From: Yoonia sp.
GTDB taxonomy: Bacteria > Pseudomonadota > Alphaproteobacteria > Rhodobacterales > Rhodobacteraceae
Reading direction: 5' to 3'
Assembly: GCF_014859355.1 (NCBI RefSeq)
Contig: NZ_JACUUJ010000003.1
Span: forward strand, 1-64,000
DNA: 64,000 bases
This document shows positions 21,387-34,467 of this stretch, one piece after another. Within the stretch, counting starts at the first letter, position 1. Every line of letters starts with the position of its first letter. The notes below the pieces were generated by a model. It was given only the letters and a program-made list of their open reading frames with translations. It was not told where the DNA came from and made no database searches. A program made the translations under genes and the position numbers.

Positions 21387-21402
21387 TTAATAGCTCATTA
21401 AC
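21387..21402 (+). promoter_or_regulatory. Perfect CtrA-type site before the polysaccharide/spike block
   Basis: TTAATAGCTCATTAAC matches TTAA-N7-TTAAC exactly. It lies in an A/T-rich 220-base divergent intergenic region, 76 bases before the preferred start of the sugar transferase. CtrA controls motility and gene transfer agent genes in Rhodobacterales. Confidence 0.65.
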
Positions 21403-21477
21403 CCTGATCTAACAGATTCAGTGATGCAAGCTGCGGCAAAACGCGCGCGGTTTTTCGCCATCACAAGGGTCCTGGCT

Positions 21478-22140
21478 ATGTTTGACTTCCAGAATGACGT
21501 CGTTGAGTTGTCCAAAGCGGATCGTGCCCACCCTTCGCTTCCGCGGGTCCAAAAGCCTCGGCTGGCGCTTTCAAAGCGGCTGTTTGACGTGGCGGGGGCG
21601 ATTATGCTTTTGCTGCCTTTGGGGGTTTCTGCGCTGCTTCTTTGCTTATTGAACCCGTTATTTAACCGTGGACCATTGTTTTTTGTGCAGGAACGGATGG
21701 GGTTTCGATGCGTTCCTTTTGCAGCCTTCAAATTCCGCACGATGACGGCGCCCAATGGTCATGCCCGTGGGGCGTTCGATGCGCTTGAAACAGACCGGAT
21801 CACCGTCCTGGGCCGGATCATGCGCAAGATGCGTATTGATGAATTGCCGCAAATCATCAACGTGCTGCGCGGCCAGATGAGCCTGATTGGGCCAAGGCCG
21901 GATCATTTCGAGCATGCCTGCGTTTACCTGCGCACGGTGCCTGGCTATTGCGCGCGCCATGACGTTTTGCCGGGCATCAGCGGGTTTGCCCAGACAGAGG
22001 TTGGCTATGTCGATGGGCTGGACGGGGTGCATCGCAAAGTGGCGGCAGATCTTTATTACATCGCCCATGCGACACTGGCGTTTGATCTGTGGATCGCGTG
22101 GCGCACGCTGGTTGTGATCGCCACCCATCGGGGAAGTTAG
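21478..22140 (+). CDS. Initiating sugar-phosphate transferase (ExoY/WbaP type)
   Basis: A bacterial sugar transferase that links the first sugar phosphate to undecaprenyl phosphate at the inner membrane. One hydrophobic segment (VAGAIMLLLPLGVSALLLCLL) is followed by the cytoplasmic catalytic part with FKFRTM and the signature DELPQIINVLRGQMSLIGPRP. I favour ATG 21478 (AAGGG upstream; 220 residues) over the GTG at 21421 used by the track, which has no ribosome site. It opens the plus-strand block that continues into ghsA-ghsB-yjbH-yjbF, and a CtrA-type site lies upstream. The sugar cannot be named; the transferase lacks the extra N-terminal membrane domain of full-length WbaP. Confidence 0.9.
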   Translation: MFDFQNDVVELSKADRAHPSLPRVQKPRLALSKRLFDVAGAIMLLLPLGVSALLLCLLNPLFNRGPLFFVQERMGFRCVPFAAFKFRTMTAPNGHARGAFDALETDRITVLGRIMRKMRIDELPQIINVLRGQMSLIGPRPDHFEHACVYLRTVPGYCARHDVLPGISGFAQTEVGYVDGLDGVHRKVAADLYYIAHATLAFDLWIAWRTLVVIATHRGS

Positions 22141-22220
22141 GGGCCACCGAACGCTGGCCCAAGCGGTTGGAAAGGATAATTGGTGTATCCCTGCACTTTA
22201 ACCAAAGTGAGGTGAACACA

Positions 22221-22478
22221 ATGTCTGACCCGTTTGAATCCGATTACGTCAACCTGACGTCGCCCGCCGTGTCGCATTATGCGGTTGTGCCTTCGGACGT
22301 GACTGACTTGCCGGTGCGTCCGCGCGCACTTTTTGTCAGTATAGGTGGCACTGCGGCGTTACAGGACAAACACGGCACGATCATCAATTATGATCTGGCT
22401 GCAGGTGCAATCCTGAGTATCCGGCCCTTGCGGGTCATGGCAACTGGCACCACTGCCCAGCTTGTTGCGTGGTTCTAG
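22221..22478 (+). CDS. ghsA: GTA-type head spike base protein
   Basis: From ATG 22221 (GAGGTGA upstream) the product has 85 residues. It has the compact pattern of the spike-base family named after R. capsulatus Rcc01079: a short variable N-terminus, LPVRPRALFVSIGGTAALQD, a turn, AGAILSIRPLRVMATGTTAQ, and an aromatic end VAWF. In R. capsulatus this protein (GhsA) with GhsB forms the spikes on the gene transfer agent head that bind the capsule. The stop is one base before the ghsB start. Similar small proteins occur in phages, but no other phage or GTA structural gene is in this window. Start was shortened by 44 residues from the track. Confidence 0.75.
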   Translation: MSDPFESDYVNLTSPAVSHYAVVPSDVTDLPVRPRALFVSIGGTAALQDKHGTIINYDLAAGAILSIRPLRVMATGTTAQLVAWF

Positions 22479-22479
22479 G

Positions 22480-24072
22480 ATGATCGGGCTGGAATTGACT
22501 CCGAGCCAGCTACAGCGTGGAAACCCCGCGCCGCTGGCAGAATATTTTTCCCGCAGCGGCGGGCAGGCAGTCGCCATTGGCGCGGCACCGGGGGGCGGGC
22601 TGTCGGTCTGGACAGAAATCGCGCCGCATGTTGCAGCCTGCCTGCGGCTTGACAATACCGTATCCGGCACGCGTCTGTCATGGCGTGAAACGCTGATCGC
22701 CACGTTGCGCAACATATATCCGGCAGGTGATCTGACGTTGACGGGCAGTTGGGTGCAAATGCAATCTTCTGGTTCTGGTCTTGCGGGCAGTTACACAGGC
22801 AATCGGGCGGTCAGCACCACATCGGCCCAAGCGCAGGCCAGTGTTTTGGTGGGACGCGACGCACCCTATGATCTGTGGGTGCATTACACCGGGCGCGTGG
22901 CGGGTGCCTATTGCCGGGTCGCGATTGACGGCACGCAGACCCTGGTGAATGAAATCGACGATCCCGCTGGCTTGGGTTTCAAGGCGTTTTCGACCCATAG
23001 CGCGATTGACCTGCACCGCCGTCGTTCTGTCAAGGTGGCCAGCGGTCTGACCGGCCAACACACTGTGACGTTGCAGCATGGCGGCGCCGCCCACCCTGGT
23101 GGCAGCACACTGATGATCGAAGCGGTGGCGATCAGTGGCAGCTTGTCAGACCCGCGCATTCTGCCGCCTGTTTGGCAAGCTGGTCATACCTACACGATCG
23201 GGGACGAGGTGCAGTATGGCGGGGTTTATTACGCGGCCCGTGCCACGGGGATTAGCGGCGCTCATCCACCCGCGCATACTGCCGGGGTCGGGTCGGACGG
23301 GGCGCTTGACTGGCGGGCCGATACGCGCAGCACCTACCCCCGTTTTGTGTGCATCGACTATCCGTCAGAACGTGAATATGCGATCCGCTGCGCTGTGGAT
23401 GGTGTGACCACTGAAATTGGGGGCCAGACCCATGGCAACGAGGCGCTGCAAAATCGCAGCGTCATGCTGGATGGCGCGCCCTTTCTGGCCAGGACGACCG
23501 GCAACGGGTTGCGTGTCGGGGCGCATGTGACGATCACGGAAACGACCATTTGGCAAACCAGCAGCGGGCCGCTGGCGGATTGCACCCTGATCCGGCAGAT
23601 AACCCCCGGCACCGTTGCACATGATGTGACAGTCACGGCAACAGGGCCGGTCGCCAGTGTAGATTGGCTCTATATCGGGATGGTCCCGATGGTGCGTTGG
23701 GATGGCAAAAGCGGCACGACGGTGTTTGATACTGTGGCAGTCGGTGATGCACCTGCGGTGATCTTGGCAGATTTTGCAGGGCAGACCCCGCCCAATATCA
23801 TGCACCCCGCAGCCCGCAGTGTCGGGATGTCCGCCAGTTTGGACGACATTGTTCTGCGCTATGGTCTAAGCGCGGGTGCTTTGCCGATAACCGATAATTT
23901 AGTTAATCGAATCGACACCTTTTTACGCCCTAATCTGGAGGCCACGACAGAAGGTGGCAGCCTCGATTGGAAGGCCAAAGCCTATGTTACAGGTGGCGCG
24001 CCGGGGGGGCTGACATTTGGTGCGGGTGATGTGTTGGGTTTTTTCAGCCGGCATGTTTTCGGAACCATTTGA
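22480..24072 (+). CDS. ghsB: GTA-type head spike fibre / capsule-binding protein
   Basis: A 530-residue protein directly after ghsA (TAG-G-ATG). It has no signal peptide. Residues about 90-215 look like a beta-rich jelly-roll, then a segment PPVWQAGHTYTIGDEVQYGG VYYAA resembles small carbohydrate-binding modules (aromatic, G-x-Y, GD.V.Y.G..Y), and the last 270 residues are again beta-rich. This order of base protein then fibre matches ghsA-ghsB (rcc01079-rcc01080) of R. capsulatus, whose product binds the polysaccharide receptor of recipient cells. Here it is embedded in a polysaccharide locus. A capsule-tailoring surface protein unrelated to GTA is the main alternative. Confidence 0.68.
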   Translation: MIGLELTPSQLQRGNPAPLAEYFSRSGGQAVAIGAAPGGGLSVWTEIAPHVAACLRLDNTVSGTRLSWRETLIATLRNIYPAGDLTLTGSWVQMQSSGSGLAGSYTGNRAVSTTSAQAQASVLVGRDAPYDLWVHYTGRVAGAYCRVAIDGTQTLVNEIDDPAGLGFKAFSTHSAIDLHRRRSVKVASGLTGQHTVTLQHGGAAHPGGSTLMIEAVAISGSLSDPRILPPVWQAGHTYTIGDEVQYGGVYYAARATGISGAHPPAHTAGVGSDGALDWRADTRSTYPRFVCIDYPSEREYAIRCAVDGVTTEIGGQTHGNEALQNRSVMLDGAPFLARTTGNGLRVGAHVTITETTIWQTSSGPLADCTLIRQITPGTVAHDVTVTATGPVASVDWLYIGMVPMVRWDGKSGTTVFDTVAVGDAPAVILADFAGQTPPNIMHPAARSVGMSASLDDIVLRYGLSAGALPITDNLVNRIDTFLRPNLEATTEGGSLDWKAKAYVTGGAPGGLTFGAGDVLGFFSRHVFGTI

Positions 24073-24132
24073 CTGCCTGCCATTCTGTCCCGGCACCCGT
24101 TGGTGCTGGGGGCCCAAAACGGGATCAGGCAG
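24073..24132 (+). other. Nested hairpin between ghsB and yjbH
   Basis: Outer arms CTGCCTG (24073-24079) and CAGGCAG (24126-24132) pair perfectly and enclose CCCGGCACC (24089-24097) with GGTGCTGGG (24102-24110, one G-U). The structure begins right after the ghsB stop and ends 14 bases before yjbH. No T-run follows, so it may be a processing or stability element. Confidence 0.55.
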
Positions 24133-24146
24133 CAGATGGGGCGTGA

Positions 24147-26171
24147 ATGACGGCAAGGGTGTTGATTTGGCTGGTCGCATGCATTTTACCATGTGGTTTA
24201 GCCGCGCAAGGGGTGGCTTTGCGCTATAACACGTTCGGGGCATCGGGTTTGATCGACATGCCTGTCGCCAGTTCTGCCCCTGATGCAGAACTGGCGTTCA
24301 CCCTGTCCAGCTTTGCCCGGCAAACCCGTAACACCTTGACTTTTCAAGCCAGCCCGCGGCTTTCGGCCAGTTTTCGCTATGCCGCGCTGCGCAAGATCAT
24401 GGGGCAACACGGCGTGATCTATGATCGTATTCTGGATCGCAGCCTTGCGCTTCACTACCGGATTCTGGATGAAACGCGGCGCCGGCCGGCGGTGGCGGTT
24501 GGTGTGGCCGATTTCATTGGCACCGGAATCTATGGCGGGGAATATCTGGTTGCCACAAAAGCTTTGCGCCCCGATCTGGCGGTGACGCTGGGGGTTGGAT
24601 GGGGGCGGTATGCGGGGGTGGGTGGCTTTGCCAACCCGTTGGGGCCTGCGTTTGCCGACCGGCCTGATCGCGTATTTGCACAGGGTGGCACCATCACACG
24701 TAATGCGTTTTTTCGCGGTGATGTCGCCTTTTTTGGCGGGGTTCAGTGGCAACCGACACCCAAGCTGGGGGTAACGCTGGAATATTCCTCTGATCGCTAT
24801 CCCTACGAAGATCCGGCCGCATTTGTCAGGCGCACGCCGTTTAATTTCGGGTTGAATTATACCCTCCGGCCGGGGGTGCAGGTGGCGGCGCAGTATCTTT
24901 ATGGTGCTGAATTCGGGGCACAGCTGACCTTTGCGCTGAACCCCACACGCCCGCCCCACGGCAGTGGATACGCGCGGGGGCCGGCCACGGTGCGCGCGGG
25001 CACACCGCTTGCCCGCGCTTTGGCGGCCGAAGGTCTGGTGCTGACGGGGGCGCAGGTGGTGGATGGGCGGATGGATATTGCCGTTCAAAACACCCGCTTT
25101 CCCGACAGTGCGCAGGCCATCGGGCGGGCGGCGCGGGTTCTGGCACAGATCGCGCCGAAAGGCATAGATGCCTTTGCCATCACGCTTGATGCGCCCGGGC
25201 TTCGGGGGCCGGCTGTCGTTTTGCAACGCAGTGATCTGGCCACGCTGGAGTTTGCGCCAAACGGAACGGCACAGATCGGGCAGCAGGCTGAATTTGCCAC
25301 CGCCGCTGCCGGTTTTGATAACCGCTATCCGGTTTTCGACTGGAGCCTGCGGCCCTATATCACGCCCAATCTGTTTGACCCGGATGACCCGCTGCGCGCT
25401 GATGTCGGCATTGCACTGGATGCCCAATGGCAACTGGCCGCTGGTGTCATTGGCCGCGCAACGGTGCAGCAGCGGCTGGCAGGCAACCTTGACCAGACCG
25501 TGCGAAAGTCTGATTCTGCCTTGCCCCACGTGCGCAGCGATTTCGCGCTTTACGAGCGTGAAGGTAACGGCGACATCGCGCAACTGGCGCTGCATTGGTA
25601 TGCGCAACCGCTTCGCGATGTTGCCACGCGGGTCTCGATCGGCCTTTTTGAGACGATGTATGGCGGCATGTCGAGCGAGGTTCTGTGGTATCCTGGCGGT
25701 CGCGATCTGGCATTTGGGATCGAATTGAACGCCCTGCGCCAGCGCGACTATGACGGTGGATTGGGCTTTCGTGATGATGCGATGACCAGCGGCCACGCCT
25801 CGATTTATTGGCAGGGCAAGGGGGGCTATTCGGCCCAGCTTGATGCGGGGCGTTACCTTGCCGGCGACTGGGGGGGCACGTTGACACTGGCGCGCCAGTT
25901 TCGCAACGGTTGGTCCTTGGGGGCCTTTGCCACGCTGACGGATGTGCCTTTTGAAACCTTTGGTGAAGGATCATTCGACAAGGGGATCGTGCTGACGGTG
26001 CCGCTTTCTTGGGTCAGCGGCCGGCCACGGCGGGATGCGCTGGCCACAACATTGCGCCCGGTCACCCGGGACGGCGGCGCGCGGGTGCAGGTTGATGGAC
26101 GGCTATACCCGCTGACAGCGCCGTTGCGCGCCCGTGCAATCAACGACAGTTGGGGGATGTTCTGGCGATGA
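24147..26171 (+). CDS. yjbH: YjbH-family outer-membrane polysaccharide export protein
   Basis: A 674-residue exported protein: signal peptide (MTARVLIWLVACILPCGLAAQG) followed by a YjbH-type body opening YNTFGASGLIDMPVASSAPD, the characteristic first strand block of that family, and many alternating beta strands up to the C-terminal NDSWGMFWR. YjbH/GfcD proteins are predicted outer-membrane barrels needed for secretion of Yjb-type or group 4 capsule polysaccharide. No Wza-like outer-membrane channel gene is in the locus, so this could be the exit route. It overlaps the next gene, a YjbF-type lipoprotein, by four bases, as in yjb operons. Confidence 0.85.
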   Translation: MTARVLIWLVACILPCGLAAQGVALRYNTFGASGLIDMPVASSAPDAELAFTLSSFARQTRNTLTFQASPRLSASFRYAALRKIMGQHGVIYDRILDRSLALHYRILDETRRRPAVAVGVADFIGTGIYGGEYLVATKALRPDLAVTLGVGWGRYAGVGGFANPLGPAFADRPDRVFAQGGTITRNAFFRGDVAFFGGVQWQPTPKLGVTLEYSSDRYPYEDPAAFVRRTPFNFGLNYTLRPGVQVAAQYLYGAEFGAQLTFALNPTRPPHGSGYARGPATVRAGTPLARALAAEGLVLTGAQVVDGRMDIAVQNTRFPDSAQAIGRAARVLAQIAPKGIDAFAITLDAPGLRGPAVVLQRSDLATLEFAPNGTAQIGQQAEFATAAAGFDNRYPVFDWSLRPYITPNLFDPDDPLRADVGIALDAQWQLAAGVIGRATVQQRLAGNLDQTVRKSDSALPHVRSDFALYEREGNGDIAQLALHWYAQPLRDVATRVSIGLFETMYGGMSSEVLWYPGGRDLAFGIELNALRQRDYDGGLGFRDDAMTSGHASIYWQGKGGYSAQLDAGRYLAGDWGGTLTLARQFRNGWSLGAFATLTDVPFETFGEGSFDKGIVLTVPLSWVSGRPRRDALATTLRPVTRDGGARVQVDGRLYPLTAPLRARAINDSWGMFWR

Positions 26172-26740
26172 GGTGGCTTTTATTCTGTCTGCTTTTTGCG
26201 GCCTGCACCGCCCCGATCCCACCGGCAGCATTGCGTGCCCAATTGACGACAGACCAAATTGCCAGGTTGCAAGTGCCGATGCTGTTTGTCAGTGCGCCAC
26301 AGATAAAGACGGCTGCCACGCTGATCCCTGTTCGGCAAAACGGGCCGGTGCGCATCTGGCAAACGCGCGATGGCGCGCAGATTGCCACGCGCGACGGGCT
26401 TGTCGTGGCCACCCATGGTCTGGGGTTTGATCTGGCAGCCTCTGATCTTGATGGGATTGCGGCTGCCATTGCGGGAGGGCCGGGGGAATACAAACGCACG
26501 CTCAGCCATATCATGGGGGATTTGCGCACATCGGTTCAGCCATATCGCTGCGTGCTTGCGCCTGACCGGTCAAAGCCGCAGAACCCCGCGATCACGGTTT
26601 TGCGCGAAGATTGCCGAGGCCCTGATCCCTTTCGCAACCTGTATCACATTGACGCAAAAGGCAGGCTATTTTGGTCGCAGCAATGGGTGTCGCCCAAGGT
26701 CGGTCACCTGGAAATCGAGGTGATCCGGCCCGATAAATAA
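26168..26740 (+). CDS. yjbF: YjbF/GfcB-family outer-membrane lipoprotein
   Basis: From ATG 26168 the product has 190 residues, with a lipoprotein signal ending in the lipobox LFAAC (cysteine near residue 13). The body contains ITVLREDCRGPDPFRNLYHID and QQWVSPKVGHLEIEVI, matching the YjbF/GfcB group of group 4 capsule lipoproteins. It overlaps the yjbH stop (ATGA), so the pair is co-translated. The role would be in periplasmic or outer-membrane steps of polysaccharide secretion. It is convergent with wzc, whose stop lies 43 bases away, with only a small GCAGG/CCTGC hairpin between them. Confidence 0.82.
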   Translation: MRWLLFCLLFAACTAPIPPAALRAQLTTDQIARLQVPMLFVSAPQIKTAATLIPVRQNGPVRIWQTRDGAQIATRDGLVVATHGLGFDLAASDLDGIAAAIAGGPGEYKRTLSHIMGDLRTSVQPYRCVLAPDRSKPQNPAITVLREDCRGPDPFRNLYHIDAKGRLFWSQQWVSPKVGHLEIEVIRPDK

Positions 26741-26783
26741 GCAGGCCCTGCGTTCCAACGGATGAGACGCCACATGCATGGTG

Positions 26784-28766
26784 CTACGCCTGCCCTGCCA
26801 CCTGTGCCAGAATGAGCCCCGTCATCGGTGCCCGCGCCGCGCGCAGAGCATCACACCCCATCAGCACCAGATGCGCCGGTGTCTTGTTCCACTGGACAGT
26901 ATAAATCACGGCATCGGTTTGTTGCACCAAAAGCGCGACATCGGCAAAGGGCAGGACGGGCGGTGCATCCAGAATGATATGATCATATGTCTGGCGCAGG
27001 CCCGTCAACAGCGCAGCAAAGGCGGGTTTGGCCAAAAGATCTGCAGGGTTTTGCGCCGTTGGACGGGCTGCCAGCATATCAAACCCGTTGTGTGTATCGG
27101 GAAAAATCGCTTCTGCGACAGGGGTGTCACCTTGCAAGACGGCGGCCAGCCCCATCTGTGGTACCTGTTGAAAATACTGGTAAAAGCTGCTGTGACGCAT
27201 GTCCGCCTCGATCAACAGAACCGATTTATCAAGCTTTGCCAGTGTATTGGCAAGAGCGATGGCATTTGTCGTCTTGCCTTCGCCATGCAGGGTTGACGTG
27301 AACATGATGACCTGTGGCACCTTGCCGTGATCCGCCAGAAAAAGCGCTGTGCGCAGGCTGCGGGATGCATCTGCCGCCGCGCTGTTGGGATTTTGTTGTA
27401 GCCAGTCCAGCACCTGCTTGCTGGTCCGGCCTGCGATCCGCGGGGTTTGGGCCATCACGGGCAGACCTGTGGCATGGTGCAGGGCTGCGGCGGTGCCAAA
27501 ACCGCTGCGCAAAGCCCCCGCCAAAACCACAAGGCCGCCCCCCCCCAGCGCCCCCAGCAATCCCGCCGCAGCCAGTATCAACACCTTGCGCGGTGCCACA
27601 TAGGTGCCGGGGCTGGCCGTGGCCAGAACGCGGCTGCCCGCTGTTTGCAACCCGCGCCGGGTGCTGGCCTGCTGGAGCCGCGCGAGAAAGGTTTCATAGG
27701 TGACGCGGGTTGCGTCGACCTCGCGGCGCAACTGGTCCAACTGGATCATCCCGGCAGAGCTTTCCGCCAGTTGCCGTTGCAGATTGGTTTGAAACTGTGA
27801 CAGCGCGGCCACCTGACGGGTGTAGCGCGCAACGTCGGCTGACAAACTGTCATAGTATATCGTGCCAGTCTGCGCTGCGATCGGTTTCGCCCGTGTTGTG
27901 CGGTCAAGGGCTGTTTGTGCCCTGTCCAGTTCTGCCTGAGCAGCCGCTAGGCGCCGCGCGGCGTCAGTCGCCTGGCGGTCCAGCGCATCGAAAGTGGTTT
28001 GGTCCTTGACATGGGTTTGCGTGCGCAAATCATTTATCGCGGCTTCGCGCATTTCGAGCTGCCCGCGCAGTTCTGACACTTTGTCGGACAGCCACCGCAG
28101 TGTCATTTCGGTTTCAGCGCGTTTTCCGGCGACCTGATCAGCCAGATAAACATCAGCCAACGTATTGGCGATCTGCGCGGATTTTTCTGGCGTGCTGGTG
28201 ATCGCAGTGATCTGGAAAACATAGGTGTCGCGCAGCGCTGTGGCGGTGACGGCTGCGCGCAGATTCTGCACGGTTTTTTCCTGCACCGCATGGCTGTCGG
28301 GGGTCACGTCAGATTGCCCGGTCAAAAAATTGCGCAACAGATTGCGCACCCCGATCAGCGACAGCGGTGGAATTGGTGTCAGGTAGCGGTTGAATTCAGG
28401 ATCCGCCATCAAGTCGCGTGCGGCCACGACCTGCGTCAGCAGATGCTTCGACTGCAGAATAGCGACTTGCGTGTTGATGTGGGCAGGGTCTGTCCCCTGG
28501 TCTGAAAATATTTGCCCGATCTCTGTGTAGGGAACGCTCGATCTGTTGATTTCCAGCGTTGTCGTCGCGGCATAACGAGGCTGCGCCACCCTGAATGCAT
28601 AAAAGCCCGCCGCCAGAACCGCCAAAAGCGTGCAGATCATGATGACATATTTGCCCAGCCATATGCGACGCAAAAGCCCGCTTATGTCCAATGGGGCTAT
28701 TGGCTGGATATCGGCCACCCCAAACTGCTGAAATGCCGGATGCCCATTCTTGACTTGGTGAAACAT
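26784..28766 (-). CDS. Wzc-like polysaccharide co-polymerase with ATPase domain
   Basis: A 660-residue inner-membrane protein: a Wzz domain with a first membrane segment near residues 40-57, a long periplasmic coiled-coil region (about 200-340), a second membrane segment (VLILAAAGLLGALGGGGLVVL), and a cytoplasmic BY-kinase domain with Walker A LHGEGKTT, A-prime LLIEADMRHS and Walker B IILDAPPVLPF. It controls chain length and export of the polysaccharide. The C-terminus ends MTGLILAQVAGQA with no tyrosine cluster, and I see no adjacent tyrosine phosphatase, so autophosphorylation cycling may not apply. It is divergent from the flippase gene, with a CtrA-type site between. Confidence 0.9.
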   Translation of the reverse strand: MFHQVKNGHPAFQQFGVADIQPIAPLDISGLLRRIWLGKYVIMICTLLAVLAAGFYAFRVAQPRYAATTTLEINRSSVPYTEIGQIFSDQGTDPAHINTQVAILQSKHLLTQVVAARDLMADPEFNRYLTPIPPLSLIGVRNLLRNFLTGQSDVTPDSHAVQEKTVQNLRAAVTATALRDTYVFQITAITSTPEKSAQIANTLADVYLADQVAGKRAETEMTLRWLSDKVSELRGQLEMREAAINDLRTQTHVKDQTTFDALDRQATDAARRLAAAQAELDRAQTALDRTTRAKPIAAQTGTIYYDSLSADVARYTRQVAALSQFQTNLQRQLAESSAGMIQLDQLRREVDATRVTYETFLARLQQASTRRGLQTAGSRVLATASPGTYVAPRKVLILAAAGLLGALGGGGLVVLAGALRSGFGTAAALHHATGLPVMAQTPRIAGRTSKQVLDWLQQNPNSAAADASRSLRTALFLADHGKVPQVIMFTSTLHGEGKTTNAIALANTLAKLDKSVLLIEADMRHSSFYQYFQQVPQMGLAAVLQGDTPVAEAIFPDTHNGFDMLAARPTAQNPADLLAKPAFAALLTGLRQTYDHIILDAPPVLPFADVALLVQQTDAVIYTVQWNKTPAHLVLMGCDALRAARAPMTGLILAQVAGQA

Positions 28767-28809
28767 TTTGCCTGCCTTCGCCGTTTAGCAAGCACTCAAC
28801 CATAGGAAA

Positions 28810-28825
28810 GTTAACCTGAAATTAA
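28810..28825 (-). promoter_or_regulatory. Perfect CtrA-type site between wzc and wzx
   Basis: On the minus strand the sequence is TTAATTTCAGGTTAAC, an exact TTAA-N7-TTAAC. It is 44-59 bases upstream of the wzc-like start and 60-75 bases upstream of the flippase start, so it could serve either gene. Confidence 0.65.
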
Positions 28826-28884
28826 TTTTCATGAAGGACCAATGAACCAAGATTTAATTTGGTTAATCCTGCCCGGAGGTTGAA

Positions 28885-30138
28885 GTGAGCTTTATGCGCA
28901 GATGGCACGTGTCAGGGCTGGTCAAAGGGTTCGCGTGGTCGGCCTTCGTGTGGCGTCTTGGAATCGTGGGCGGGAACTTTGGCATCATGGTGGGGTTGGT
29001 CTGGTGGCTGGGATTGGCCGAATTTGGCAATCTGATGGTGCTTTGGGGGATGGCACTTGTTGCGGGCACGGTCATGTCTGTGGGTGCGCCGGTTCTTATC
29101 TTGCGGGTCATGACCGATGGCACGGGCCTTCGGGCCAGCGGCCTGATCCGGCTGATGTGCCTGTATCCGGTGGCACTGGCGGCGCTGGCGGGGGGGGTGT
29201 TGCATATGATCCTGCCAGGGCCCGCATGGGGGGCAATCCTGTTGACGGGACTGGCTTTCAATGCGTTGCAGTGCCTTGCCAGCGTTTTGCGCGCGCTGGG
29301 CAGTGTGCAAATGTCCATGGCACTGCGTGACGGCGTTCCGCAACTGGCGCTTGGGGCGGCGGCTTGTTTGACGGGCAAGGCCGTTGGCATCTTGATTGTG
29401 GCGGCCTGCGCCATGGGCGGGGTGGGCTTGCTTGTGCTGCTGGTGTGCCTTTTACACCCGGGCCTGCGCACCCGTTTGCGTGCCAGCGGCGACCGGGGCG
29501 CTGTGCGCGGCGGGCTGTGGGCCAATGCGGTGCTGGGGATGGCCACGGCCCAAATCGACATCGTGCTTGCTGGTGGCGTGCTGTCGGCCGACCAGATCGG
29601 GATCTATGCGCTGGTGCGCCGGATTGCCAATCTGGTGGCCCTACCGGTCAGCGTGGCGACGTGGGTCAGTGCCCCGCCGATCGCTGCGGCCTTCGGCGCC
29701 GGCGACCACGTGGCATTGCGCAGGGCAAGTGCTGTGGGAAGTCGCATTGCATTGTTGCCGGGGGGCGCGTTTTTTGCGGTGGCCCTGTTGGCCATGCCGC
29801 TGTGGCCCGGTCTGGCGGATGCGCGCCCGTTGGCGGTGATCCTGCTGAGCGGGGCACTTGTGCAGGTGGGGCTGGCATCCGGTTTCACGGTGGCAACGCT
29901 CTGTGGGTTGGAAAAAAGCGCGGTTCTTGCACGACTCGCGAGCCTTGGCGTGTATCTGGCCATCGCTTTTGGTGCGGGGGGGGCTGCGACAACCACGGGC
30001 AACGCGCTGGCCTATCTGGCGGGCATCATCGCGGGCGGCGCTTTGCTGTGGTGGCTGTTGTGGCTGCGGCTACAAATTGACACGTCTGCCTTCGCAGTGT
30101 GTGCGGGTCCAAGGGGGCAACGATGGAAAATGCCCTGA
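28885..30138 (+). CDS. Wzx-type polysaccharide flippase
   Basis: A 417-residue membrane protein with about twelve hydrophobic segments, from LGIVGGNFGIMVGLVWWLG onward, in the pattern of the oligosaccharide flippase (MOP/MATE-like) superfamily. It would turn the undecaprenyl-linked repeat unit to the periplasmic side. Start is GTG 28885, well placed after GGAGG. The gene overlaps the next one, a Wzy-like polymerase, by 16 bases. Identification rests on membrane topology and neighbours; short conserved motifs are weak in this family. Confidence 0.82.
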   Translation: MSFMRRWHVSGLVKGFAWSAFVWRLGIVGGNFGIMVGLVWWLGLAEFGNLMVLWGMALVAGTVMSVGAPVLILRVMTDGTGLRASGLIRLMCLYPVALAALAGGVLHMILPGPAWGAILLTGLAFNALQCLASVLRALGSVQMSMALRDGVPQLALGAAACLTGKAVGILIVAACAMGGVGLLVLLVCLLHPGLRTRLRASGDRGAVRGGLWANAVLGMATAQIDIVLAGGVLSADQIGIYALVRRIANLVALPVSVATWVSAPPIAAAFGAGDHVALRRASAVGSRIALLPGGAFFAVALLAMPLWPGLADARPLAVILLSGALVQVGLASGFTVATLCGLEKSAVLARLASLGVYLAIAFGAGGAATTTGNALAYLAGIIAGGALLWWLLWLRLQIDTSAFAVCAGPRGQRWKMP

Positions 30139-31472
30139 TCATCGCGCTGGGCCTTGTCTGTGCGGCTGTGCCCTTTGCCCTGGGGCAGCGATACGGGCTG
30201 GTCCGGCTGGTGTCCCCGATGCATCTGCTGGGCTGGTTTTGCCTGTTCGGTTTCACAACAAAGGCCGTGGTCTATGCCATGGCGCCGCAGTTCGCGTTTT
30301 ACCGTCGCTTTGTCGATAACCCCTGGGGTGATTTGCTGGGCGCGCTGTATCTGGCGCTGTTTATTCTGGCGATTTGTCTGGGGTATCGGCTGGCTTGTGC
30401 GCCGGTGCGCCAGCCCGACAATATACAAGCCGCGCGGATAATTGCCACGGGTATCGCGCGGCGCGGGTGGCTGTTCGGGCTGGCGTTCGGGGTTGCAGCG
30501 GCCACGGCGCTGATGATCCTGCGGGCACGCGGCGCGACACTCGATCTTGATTTGCTGGCGGGCGTCAACAGCGCGAAGCAGATCAACGTGGGTGCGAATG
30601 GCGTGGGCAGCACGCTGGCCGGGCTGAAAACCCTGTTTATTGTGCCCAAATGCGCCTTTGTTCTGCTGCTTGCGCATGGCGTCGCGGCGCGGGCGCGGCT
30701 GGCGCTGGTGCAAGCGGCGGCGCTGGCGGTGCTGCTGTTGGGGATCGCGCTGATCTCGGGCGACCGGTTTGAACTGGTGGAAATGCTGATCTATGCGCTG
30801 GCCACTTCTCTCATGCTGGGCGGGCGGATCAGCGGGCGCGCAGCGGTCTGGCTGGTGGGCGTAGGGGCAGTGATTGTCGCCCTGTCGGTCTATATGACCG
30901 AACTGCGGCTGGGGCAGGGGGGCGGTTTTGGCCTGTTGGCGTCACAGTTGGTTGGTTCGACCTATTTTCTGGATCTGAACGCGGCCATCATGATCACCGA
31001 CCGGATGGAACCGGACCAGATGATGCTGGGGCAAAGCTATTTCTGGTGGCTTTTCGGCTGGGTGCCGCGCGCCATCTGGGTCGATAAACCCGCCGTTGAT
31101 CTGGGCGTGTTTTTCAAGCGTGACCTGATGGGGGTTTACACCGGGGGCGGCTATAATGTCACCGGCCCGGGCGAGGCGTTCATCAATTTCGGATGGGGCG
31201 GGGTTGGCGTAGGCCTTGTGCTGGGCTGGCTTTACCGCAAGGGCGAGGCCGCGGTGCTGGCGGCGCGCGCCACGCTGCGCCATGGCGCGTTTCTGTTATA
31301 TCCGCTGCTGTTTTACCCCTTTGTGCAGGCGACGCTGCAATCATCATTCAGTGCCTTCATTGTTCTGGCGGTTGCGCAGTTTGTCATGATTGCCGCGATG
31401 ATCGCGATTTTTGTGCCGCGTTATGCGGTGAAGGCGCGGCTTTATCACAGGGGGGCGGCCGATGCTGCTTAA
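30123..31472 (+). CDS. Wzy-like polysaccharide polymerase
   Basis: A 449-residue polytopic membrane protein with ten or more hydrophobic segments and a longer periplasmic loop around [20 protein letters not shown], followed by [18 protein letters not shown] and [13 protein letters not shown], features seen in oligosaccharide repeat-unit polymerases (OrfW/Wzy-like). It would join flipped repeat units in the periplasm. Start at ATG 30123 is preceded by AAGGGGGCAACG and lies inside the flippase gene. It overlaps the following acyltransferase gene by 11 bases. Confidence 0.8.
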
Positions 31473-32031
31473 ATCAATCGACGGTGCGGTGCGGATCGGG
31501 GGCGCTGTCTGGCGCAGGGTTGGCCTGTGGGCCGCAACGGTGCTGCACCGCGCCGTGCTGGCGCGTGTCGGGCCAGGGTGCCGGTTTCAGGCCGGTGTGC
31601 ATTTTGCCGCCCCCAACGCGGTGCAGATCGGCGCAAACGGCTATTTCTGGCGCGGTTGCACGGCCCTGTCGGAACTGCCGGGGGGCCGTCTGTTGATTGG
31701 TGACGGGGTGCAGATCAACCGTGATGTGCATCTGGATATCACGGGCGGTTTGCAGATCGGTGACAGGGCGCTGATTTCCGAAGACGTCGTGATCTATACC
31801 CATGATCACGGGTTGGACCCGCGCAGCGCGCCCCTGCCAATTCCTAAGGTGATCGGCCCCGATGTCTGGATCGGGATGCGCGCGGTAATTCTGCCGCAGT
31901 GCCGCCGGATCGGGCAGGGTGCTGTGATCGCCGCCGGTGCCATCGTCACGCGCGATGTGCCCGCGGGGGCTATCGTTGCGGGCAACCCTGCGCGGGTCAT
32001 CGGCCAGACCAACCGGCAGGAGGCCGCATGA
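31462..32031 (+). CDS. Left-handed beta-helix acyltransferase (first copy)
   Basis: A 189-residue protein with hexapeptide repeats through its middle and end (for example [76 protein letters not shown]). The HDH region and the closing NPARVIG are typical of sugar O-acetyltransferases of the WcaF/Maa/NodL kind. It would decorate a sugar of the repeat unit, probably with acetyl. It overlaps the polymerase gene upstream and the GT4 gene downstream (ATGA), so it is part of one translationally coupled run. Confidence 0.85.
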
Positions 32032-33158
32032 ACATCCTGCATGTCAGCCCCAGTTTTTACCCTGCGACTGCTTGGGGTGGGCCGATATTTTCAACCAAGA
32101 CGATTTGCGACGGGATCGCCGCACGCCCCGATATGGCGTTGCGCGTGCTGACAACAGATGCCGCCAGCCCGACAGGGCCGGGCCGCGTGACCCCAGTGCC
32201 TTTGCCCTATCCGGTGCATTTTGCGCGCCGTGTCGCGGGGGGCAGTATCGCGCCGGGGCTGTTCGCGCGATTGCCGCAGGCCATCGCATGGGCCGATGTG
32301 GTGCATCTGACGGCAACCTACAGTTTCCCGACCTTGCCTGTGCTGGCGCTGGCGCGGATCATCGGGCGGCCTTTGGTGTGGTCGCCGCGCGGGGCGTTGC
32401 AGGCCACCCAGACATGGGATGCGGCCCCGCGCAAAGCCATGAAACGCAGGTTCGAAACGCTGGCGCAAATAATCCGACCCGATGCAACTGTTTTGCATGT
32501 CACAGCCCCGTCCGAGGCGCGTGACAGCGTGGCCCGCCTGACCGGCATTCAAACCGCCTGCATTCCCAACTGTGTGACGATCCCGGCGCTTATGCCACAG
32601 GTCAAAACGGGGGCTGCGCGGCTGATGTATATCGGGCGGCTGCACCCCAAAAAGGGGTTAGAGCGTTTGTTCGACGCGATGGCGGCCCTGCCCGACCGTG
32701 TGTGCCTTGATGTTTACGGCACCGGCGATGCGGCCTATCTGGCCGGTTTGCAGGCCCACGCTGTCGCATCCGCCGGTCGCATCCGTCTGCACGGCCATGT
32801 CGATGGTTTTGCGAAAACAGCAGCTTTTGCGCGCGCGGACCTTTGCGTTTTTCCCAGCTATTCGGAAAATTTCGGGATTGTCGTGGCCGAGGCGCTGGCC
32901 CATGGCGTGCCCGTCGTGACGACCACCGCAACCCCGTGGGCGGCGCTTGACAGCATGGGTTGCGGGCGCTGTGTCGATCTGGACCGCGTGTCACTGGCGC
33001 AAGCGATCACGGTAATGTTGCAAGACGATCTGACCGCGATGGGTGCGGCAGGGCGGGCATGGATGGCGCGTGATTTTTCCCCTGATGCGATGACCGATGC
33101 CTTTGCGGCGCTTTATCACAGGCTGGCGCAGGGACGCGCGGCGATGGTGCCCGCATGA
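32028..33158 (+). CDS. Glycosyltransferase family 4 protein
   Basis: A 376-residue GT-B enzyme. The N-terminal half begins [19 protein letters not shown]; the C-terminal half has the nucleotide-sugar region with [38 protein letters not shown] and the E-x7-E motif in [21 protein letters not shown]. It adds one sugar, with retention, to the lipid-linked repeat unit at the cytoplasmic face. ATG 32028 overlaps the preceding stop; the 43 residues before it in the track ORF are an out-of-gene extension. The sugar donor cannot be read from the sequence. Confidence 0.9.
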
Positions 33159-33706
33159 CGATGCAGCTGGATGTCAGCGCCAACCGCGCCGCCCGCAAAT
33201 ACAGCCGCCGCACGCAGGTCGCGCGCGTGCTTTGGGCGTTGTGCCTGCCGCTGTTCCGGTTCAGCCCGCGCCCGATGTGGGGCTGGCGCGCGTGGCTGTT
33301 GCGCCGGTTCGGGGCGCAGGTGGGGCGTGGGGCGCATCTGCATCCGACGGTGCGCATCCTGATGCCGTGGAACCTGTCAATCGGTGATCAGGTGACGGTC
33401 GGGGACAGCGCGATCCTTTATGCGTTGGGGGCGATCACGATCTGCGACAGGGCCACGGTGTCGCAATACGTGCACTTGTGCGCGGGCACCCATGACATCC
33501 GTGATCCGGCGCGGACCTTGTGCAAACCGCCCATCACCATCGGGCCGGATGCCTGGGTTTGTGCCGATGCCTTTGTCGGGCCGGGCGTGCGGATCGGCGC
33601 GGGGGCGATCCTGGGTGCGCGAGCGGTGGCGATGCGTGATCTGCCGCCGCGCAGTACCGGCGTTGGCAACCCGATGCAGATTATCATCGGAAAGGAAAAG
33701 CGATGA
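33155..33706 (+). CDS. WcaF-like acetyltransferase (second beta-helix copy)
   Basis: A 183-residue acyltransferase with the WcaF-type N-terminal region (WALCLPLFRFSPRPMWGWRAWLLRRFGA) followed by hexapeptide-repeat strands (LSIGDQVTVGDSAILY, ITICDRATVSQYVHLCAGTHD, ITIGPDAWVCADAFVGPGVRIG). The HLCAGTHD segment corresponds to the active-site histidine region of putative colanic acid acetyltransferases. It starts inside the GT4 stop (ATGA) and overlaps the next glycosyltransferase by four bases. With the first copy this predicts a doubly acylated repeat unit. Confidence 0.88.
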   Translation: MTMQLDVSANRAARKYSRRTQVARVLWALCLPLFRFSPRPMWGWRAWLLRRFGAQVGRGAHLHPTVRILMPWNLSIGDQVTVGDSAILYALGAITICDRATVSQYVHLCAGTHDIRDPARTLCKPPITIGPDAWVCADAFVGPGVRIGAGAILGARAVAMRDLPPRSTGVGNPMQIIIGKEKR

Positions 33707-34467
33707 AAATTTCCGTGGTCACGGCTGTTTACAATGGTGGCGATACGCTGCCCCGCGCGGTGGACAGCCTGCGCCGCCAGACCCATGCGCATGTCGAACA
33801 TGTGGTGCAGGATGGCGGGTCTACCGATGGCACGCTGGCTTGGCTGGCAGCAAACGGACACCACGGCATGGCGCTGGTGTCGGCCCCCGATGCAGGGATC
33901 TATGATGCGATCAACGCGGGCATTGCGCGGGCTTCGGGCGATGTCATCGGCCTGCTGCATGCTGATGACTTTCTGGCGGATAACGCCGTGCTGGCCCGTG
34001 TCGCTGCCGCACTGGCGGATCCAGCCATCGACGGGGTTTACGGTGATCTGCAATATGTCGCGCGCGATGACGATACCCGCGTGATCCGCCATTGGTCGGC
34101 GGGGGTTTACACGCCGCAGCGGCTGCGCCGTGGCTGGATGCCGCCGCACCCCACGCTTTACTTGCGCCGCAAGGTGTTTGAGCGCTGGGGGCTTTATGAT
34201 ACCAGCTATCGGATTGCGGGCGATTATGACGGGATGCTGCGCTGGCTGACCAAAGGGCAAGTGCGGCTGGCCTATATCCCGCATGTGATGGTGCGGATGC
34301 GGCTGGGGGGCGCCAGCAACCGGTCGCTGGCCCAGATGCTGCACAAAAGCCGCGAGGATTACCGCGCGATCCGCACCCATGGAGTTGGCGGTGTCGGCAC
34401 GCTGGTGACCAAGAACCTGTCGAAATTGCCGCAGTTTATCGCGCGGGGTGCGGGGCTCAGGTTTTGA
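33703..34467 (+). CDS. Glycosyltransferase family 2 protein
   Basis: A 254-residue GT-A enzyme. The start KISVVTAVYNGGDTLPRAVDSL and EHVVQDGGSTDGTLAWL are the classic GT2 nucleotide-binding strands, and LLHADDFLADNAVL supplies the DxD-like metal site (ADD). The family resembles WcaA/WcaE-type enzymes of colanic acid-like loci. It is the last gene of the plus-strand polysaccharide run and overlaps the convergent enolase-superfamily gene by 11 bases, so the two transcripts end into each other with no terminator visible between them. Confidence 0.9.
   Translation: MKISVVTAVYNGGDTLPRAVDSLRRQTHAHVEHVVQDGGSTDGTLAWLAANGHHGMALVSAPDAGIYDAINAGIARASGDVIGLLHADDFLADNAVLARVAAALADPAIDGVYGDLQYVARDDDTRVIRHWSAGVYTPQRLRRGWMPPHPTLYLRRKVFERWGLYDTSYRIAGDYDGMLRWLTKGQVRLAYIPHVMVRMRLGGASNRSLAQMLHKSREDYRAIRTHGVGGVGTLVTKNLSKLPQFIARGAGLRF

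Follow-up and report, generated by a model that had tools for sequence, protein, structure and literature searches.

How is the production of gene transfer agent (GTA) particles in few cells matched to the receptivity of neighbouring cells? This open question was addressed with a locus of Yoonia sp. that carries genes for a GTA head spike together with genes for a capsule, the type of surface structure that serves as the receptor for the Rhodobacter capsulatus GTA (RcGTA) (PMC10218006). The window, meaning the whole stretch of DNA that was analysed, comprised 64,000 nucleotides (NZ_JACUUJ010000003.1, positions 1 to 64,000, forward strand). Two copies of a CtrA-type box, TTAA-N7-TTAAC, were located in this locus. 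It is likely that both boxes are CtrA sites, that phosphorylated CtrA (CtrA~P) acts through them to activate two transcription units that face inward, and that spike and capsule form one co-inherited module tied to CtrA.

Two boxes and their conservation

Exactly two perfect TTAA-N7-TTAAC matches were present in the window, at the positions that the initial annotation had reported (Table 1). The boxes pointed inward. Box 1 was directed to the sugar transferase-ghsA-ghsB-yjbH-yjbF operon on the forward strand and was followed by a third half-site, CTAAC (21409-21413), in 11-bp phase. Box 2 lay in the wzc-wzx promoter region, where it had been placed before, but it faced wzc on the reverse strand rather than wzx. 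An effect of box 2 on wzx-wzy is possible. The number of matches expected in the window was 0.03 in dinucleotide shuffles, and two matches were obtained in 0 of 100 shuffles. The earlier estimate of 0.1 was slightly generous.

The whole-genome motif scan that the annotation had proposed as a check was performed on the 2.98-Mb genome. As a control for AT-rich promoters, the half-sites TTAA and TTAAC were also placed at other spacings k (k = 2 to 14), and the counts were tallied by hand from the match listing. The N7 spacing was in excess, with 16 matches (14 distinct sites) compared to 8 at k = 6 and 1-3 at each of the other spacings. There was no excess at k = 7 relative to the backward pattern (16 forward matches, 19 backward), and over all spacings the backward pattern gave 224 matches and the forward pattern 45. 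Because the backward words (AATT, CAATT) are more frequent in this DNA, little importance was attached to this second control.

Conservation was determined in a genus set of 39 loci, which represented 39 species of the window's own genus, and in an overlapping named set of 22 loci from Yoonia, Loktanella, Roseobacter CCS2, Harenicola and other Rhodobacteraceae. The annotation had let its reading depend on the persistence of both sites in relatives, and this persistence proved very strong. In the genus set, the box of the sugar transferase-ghsA-ghsB operon was present in 37/39 loci and had one mismatch in the remaining two, and the wzc-wzx box was found in 39/39. Such sites were almost absent from the rest of the same loci, where one other N7 match occurred in 357,653 bases. 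In the named set, TTAA-N7-TTAA preceded the sugar transferase in 22/22 loci and lay in the wzc-wzx gap in 21/22.

The inner structure of the boxes was consistent with selection on the half-sites. The 7-bp spacer of the spike box had 32 variants among 40 sites, the eight TTAA positions were fixed, and the trailing C was retained in 35 of the 40. Five of the seven spacer columns carried no more than 0.3 bits, and the flanks around box 1 carried about 0.25 bits per column. The contrast between spacer and half-sites is an internal control for selection because both share one history. The 39 species are kin and not 39 independent events; the drifted spacers and flanks show ample divergence despite this kinship. 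The direction of the motif was also kept. Box 2 read GTTAA on the plus strand in 39/39 loci, so that its C was on the wzc side; the C pointed to the sugar transferase nearly always and to wzc always.

Spike and capsule genes of the locus

The capsule genes (Bac_transf, YjbH/F, Wzc, Wzy) adjoin the spike genes in this locus. The earlier gene assignments stood for GhsA, the sugar transferase, Wzc, Wzy and YjbH/YjbF, which were supported by homology or domain matches, while Wzx was assigned by position only, and the wzx-like protein had no Pfam or NCBIfam match. GhsA was a homologue of Rcc01079, the base of the RcGTA head spike. The start codon of the sugar transferase was probably ATG 21478 and not GTG 21421. 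This ATG was preferred because ATGTTTGA(C/T)TT recurred at the start in many orthologs.

Table 1. Coordinates, strands and supporting evidence for the features of the spike-capsule locus.
Feature	Position	Strand	Evidence or remark
CtrA box 1 (putative), TTAATAGCTCATTAAC	21387..21402	+	upstream of sugar transferase/spike operon
-10-like element CAGATT	21413..21418	+	implied transcription start near 21425; box 1 5' end near -38
Initiating sugar transferase (Bac_transf)	21478..22140	+	PF02397, E=2.5e-48
ghsA, base protein of the GTA head spike, 85 aa	22221..22478	+	match to PDB 6tb9 Rcc01079 'head spike base', E=2.7e-23
ghsB, candidate for the head-spike fibre, specific to this clade, N-terminus MIGLEL	22480..24072	+	predicted structure, Foldseek
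yjbH/gfcD-like exopolysaccharide protein	24147..26171	+	PF06082, E=1.2e-186
yjbF/gfcB-like capsule lipoprotein	26150..26740	+	PF11102, E=2.8e-22
wzc, polysaccharide co-polymerase/tyrosine kinase	26784..28766	-	Wzz, GNVR and AAA_31 domains
Extended -10-like element TG-g-TTGAGT, wzc promoter	28794..28802	-	implied start near 28787
CtrA box 2 (putative), TTAATTTCAGGTTAAC	28810..28825	-	wzc-wzx gap, reads toward wzc
Secondary degenerate half-site pair TTCA-N7-TTCA	28832..28846	-	upstream of box 2, in helical phase
wzx-like flippase, divergent from wzc	28885..30138	+	named by position and in the initial annotation; position kept in orthologous loci
wzy-like repeat-unit polymerase, co-inherited with ghsB	30126..31472	+	TIGR04370, E=3.6e-16
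Rest of capsule operon: two genes each of hexapeptide transferase-like and glycosyltransferase-like type	31462..34467	+	first hexapeptide gene by domain match; order kept in most loci

Spike and capsule genes were co-inherited. In 57 genomes from this genus, ghsB and the wzy-like gene were both present in 41 and both absent in 14. None had the wzy-like gene only, and two had ghsB only (fragmented assemblies). The Fisher test of this co-occurrence gave p=1.6e-11, with ancestry ignored. In two genus members (L158/G397 and L166/G417), ghsB was split into two frames and the boxes and capsule genes remained. The split suggests recent loss of the fibre.

The arrangement of the locus also admits a function of the boxes in the capsule only, where CtrA times the capsule with the cell cycle and ghsAB is carried along because it follows the sugar transferase, the first gene of the operon. 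The first gene after box 1 is this capsule-type sugar transferase, box 2 faces wzc, capsulation in Caulobacter is under cell-cycle control (PMC4241560), and ghsA loci elsewhere are usually without boxes. However, a passenger should be lost independently of the capsule. The spike genes were always inside the boxed operon, were lost with the capsule and never without it, and a capsule-only genome was not found among the 57 of the genus. A role restricted to the capsule is thus possible and rather doubtful.

Promoter geometry and the candidate regulator

The promoters downstream of the boxes were compared among orthologs, with positions counted from the box start. In the box 1 promoters, A+27 occurred with T+31 in 17/23, with other offsets giving at most 4/23, and T+31 alone was kept in 22/23. 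Of the 22 box 2 orthologs, all had TG-N-T at +23 to +26 and 20 had T+31. If these conserved bases are -10 elements, both boxes would begin at about -38. In Caulobacter, TTAA-N7-TTAA is the full CtrA motif, which activates when it is located at -39 and represses when it is located at -14 (PMC4287350).

Additional half-sites were observed near box 2. Degenerate half-sites were found at offset -10 from the box in 38/39 loci and at -21 in 35/39, compared to a mean per offset of about 3/39, and TTAA was found at -41 or -42 in 25/39. These phased half-sites were tentatively read as an extended CtrA array at the wzc promoter. In most of 33 unique loci, a conserved block beside box 2 (28829-28846) had the sequence ATG-AAn-GAn-nAn-TRA on the strand that faces wzx. 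It is possible that positions 28829-28843 of this block form a four-codon mini open reading frame. A degenerate CtrA-like half-site pair, TGAA-N7-TRAA, may be the better fit and was preferred because of the helical phasing.

A CtrA ortholog was encoded in the genome. It shared 79% identity with a Rhodobacterales CtrA sequence across 225 aa, and the next match had 40-41%. The genes that faced or adjoined the other perfect boxes encoded LuxI, a HAMP/Cache chemotaxis receptor, GGDEF-EAL, Tad-like and RadC proteins and an MshEN glycosyltransferase. Several of them resemble genes typical of CtrA regulons. Some genomic boxes looked non-functional, for example L004 and L006 at the 3' ends of genes. 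The box before the luxI-type autoinducer synthase gene was perfect (G000:C94:50720-50735). It suggests that CtrA feeds quorum sensing in this genome too, as in Dinoroseobacter shibae, where luxI2 has predicted CtrA sites and both luxI2 and luxI3 need CtrA (PMC4046655). The D. shibae genes are similar to the present case in the box before luxI, but they are quorum-sensing genes and not spike or capsule genes.

Many OmpR-type regulators were found in this genome (19 CtrA-like matches), and the extra conserved elements near box 2 could belong to another factor. It is nevertheless improbable that the boxes are used by a different response regulator of the OmpR family, or that CtrA represses from them. 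The sequence is the full motif of CtrA itself (PMC4287350), the remaining boxed genes look like a CtrA regulon, and the putative position near -38 would suit activation.

The particle, known systems and the proposed coupling

The nature of the particle was considered from the fibre and the capsid. The structure model of GhsB (predicted local distance difference test score, pLDDT, 79) resembled a phage tail fibre (Foldseek E=4.8e-27) and contained a fold like CBM35 carbohydrate-binding modules (Foldseek). A sequence search of the PDB with GhsB gave no match. The start of GhsB, MIGLEL, resembled that of the R. capsulatus fibre, MIALGLGLGL, with a shared N-terminal I-x-L-x-L pattern that was recognised by eye only. 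The R. capsulatus fibre docks into the pentamer of the base through (iso)leucines that alternate along this start (PMC7296036). The GhsA-like base was present in 132/397 genomes of the family (about one third), and this fibre type was rare. Several genomes (e.g. G343), including that of R. capsulatus (G454), had two or three GhsA-like genes. Fibres seem to be exchangeable.

The copies of GhsA-like genes in some genomes, the phage-like fold of the fibre and the location of ghsAB away from the GTA capsid gene (contigs C62 and C41, respectively) would all be expected if the spike genes decorated a phage or another particle. Such a particle is quite improbable here. R. capsulatus likewise carries its spike genes outside the structural cluster, and the RcGTA particle contains GhsA as a structural component (PMC7296036). 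Moreover, the genome had one HK97-type capsid gene, and this was of the RcGTA type (Rcc01687 match, E=2.3e-143). An origin of the boxes by chance or by AT-rich promoter composition has a negligible probability, for although the local promoters are AT-richer (about 49-50% GC) and make the naive expectation too low, it was ruled out by the shuffles, the spacing control, the conservation in 39 species and the drifted spacers.

Several results weighed against direct control of spike and capsule by CtrA. In R. capsulatus, whose genome was recognised by a 100% GhsA match, neither the ghsA promoter nor the capsule genes had a perfect or one-mismatch box, the capsule genes belong to an expression module linked to quorum sensing and lie outside the three CtrA modules (PMC4158056), and the spike genes follow GTA overproduction (PMC6363796). 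In the ghsA loci of other genera, a nearby upstream box was found in only 2/60. The proposed wzc -10 element is non-canonical, without A at the second position. GhsB had no detectable homology to Rcc01080 (hhalign probability 0.2%), and because of this the binding of the capsule by the fibre rests on fold and synteny. In Harenicola (L036), the spike box was present and the wzc site had only a one-mismatch version. The same locus had a perfect box immediately ahead of the first of the hexapeptide transferase genes in the capsule operon (L036:16591), a possible relocation of the site.

CtrA boxes as a general rule for GTA spikes were ruled out, since they were missing from R. capsulatus and from most of the 60 ghsA loci in other genera. 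The R. capsulatus genome as a whole showed the same N7 excess.

The locus was compared with known systems. It is similar to the RcGTA spike/capsule locus rcc01079-rcc01086 in its homologous spike base and in the adjacency of spike and capsule genes, and the capsule genes of R. capsulatus are co-regulated with the spikes (PMC10218006). It differs from that locus in the TTAA-N7-TTAA boxes and in a fibre without detectable homology, and the capsule genes of R. capsulatus are outside the CtrA expression modules (PMC4158056). The capsule gene sets are also non-homologous, except for one weak glycosyltransferase match. In R. capsulatus, CtrA reaches the GTA genes through GafA, and the gafA promoter resembles the present promoters in having a CtrA box at a GTA-system gene, with box and distance kept among species (PMC6363796). 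However, the gafA site reads TTAAC-N6-GTAAC and belongs to a gene for a regulator, whereas in Yoonia perfect boxes are placed right at the genes for spike structure and receptor. The known GTA circuit does not by itself account for the Yoonia wiring, because CtrA of R. capsulatus acts via GafA and the spike/capsule locus there is without boxes. A further likeness is found in pili- and flagella-dependent alphaproteobacterial phages with CtrA boxes (lytic deferment). Some phages time lysis through host CtrA, and in the boxed phages the particle genes are under host CtrA and production is matched to receptive cells (PMC9437464). There, only phage genes are boxed and the receptor is an appendage; here, a receptor-binding protein and a receptor-synthesis gene are boxed in one host locus.

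The initial annotation had proposed that spike and receptor may be switched together, and such co-switching is supported by the promoter conservation and the gene identities of the locus. We infer that CtrA is the binding protein, that it activates rather than represses, and that this spike binds this capsule. From box 1, CtrA~P would activate sugar transferase-ghsA-ghsB(-yjbH-yjbF), which would supply the GTA head spike and the enzyme that initiates the capsule repeat. From box 2, it would activate wzc, for chain length and export of the capsule. Capsule-making receptive cells and spike-bearing particles would then arise in the same CtrA-on population. GTA producers and recipients may be different cells. 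Since ghsAB is in one operon with the gene for the enzyme that initiates the capsule, spikes would also be made in recipients unless ghsAB has an internal promoter that is specific to the GTA.

The pairing of spike and capsule is already known, and the direct CtrA wiring proposed here is specific to this clade. No earlier description of a direct double CtrA wiring was found in the literature searched. On balance, we favour the view that in Yoonia/Loktanella the spike and its capsule receptor are one co-inherited module wired to CtrA at both promoters, which replaces the R. capsulatus wiring and has an extended, helically phased half-site array at the wzc promoter. A shared regulator probably switches on both the key (spike) and the lock (capsule). 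One regulator appears to control both the grip of the particle and a gene that makes its receptor, through sites under selection in about 40 related marine species, and the coupling is directly testable through a pair of short promoter sequences. The pairing of spike and capsule persists while the regulatory wiring and the type of fibre change, in parallel to phages that have genes under CtrA.

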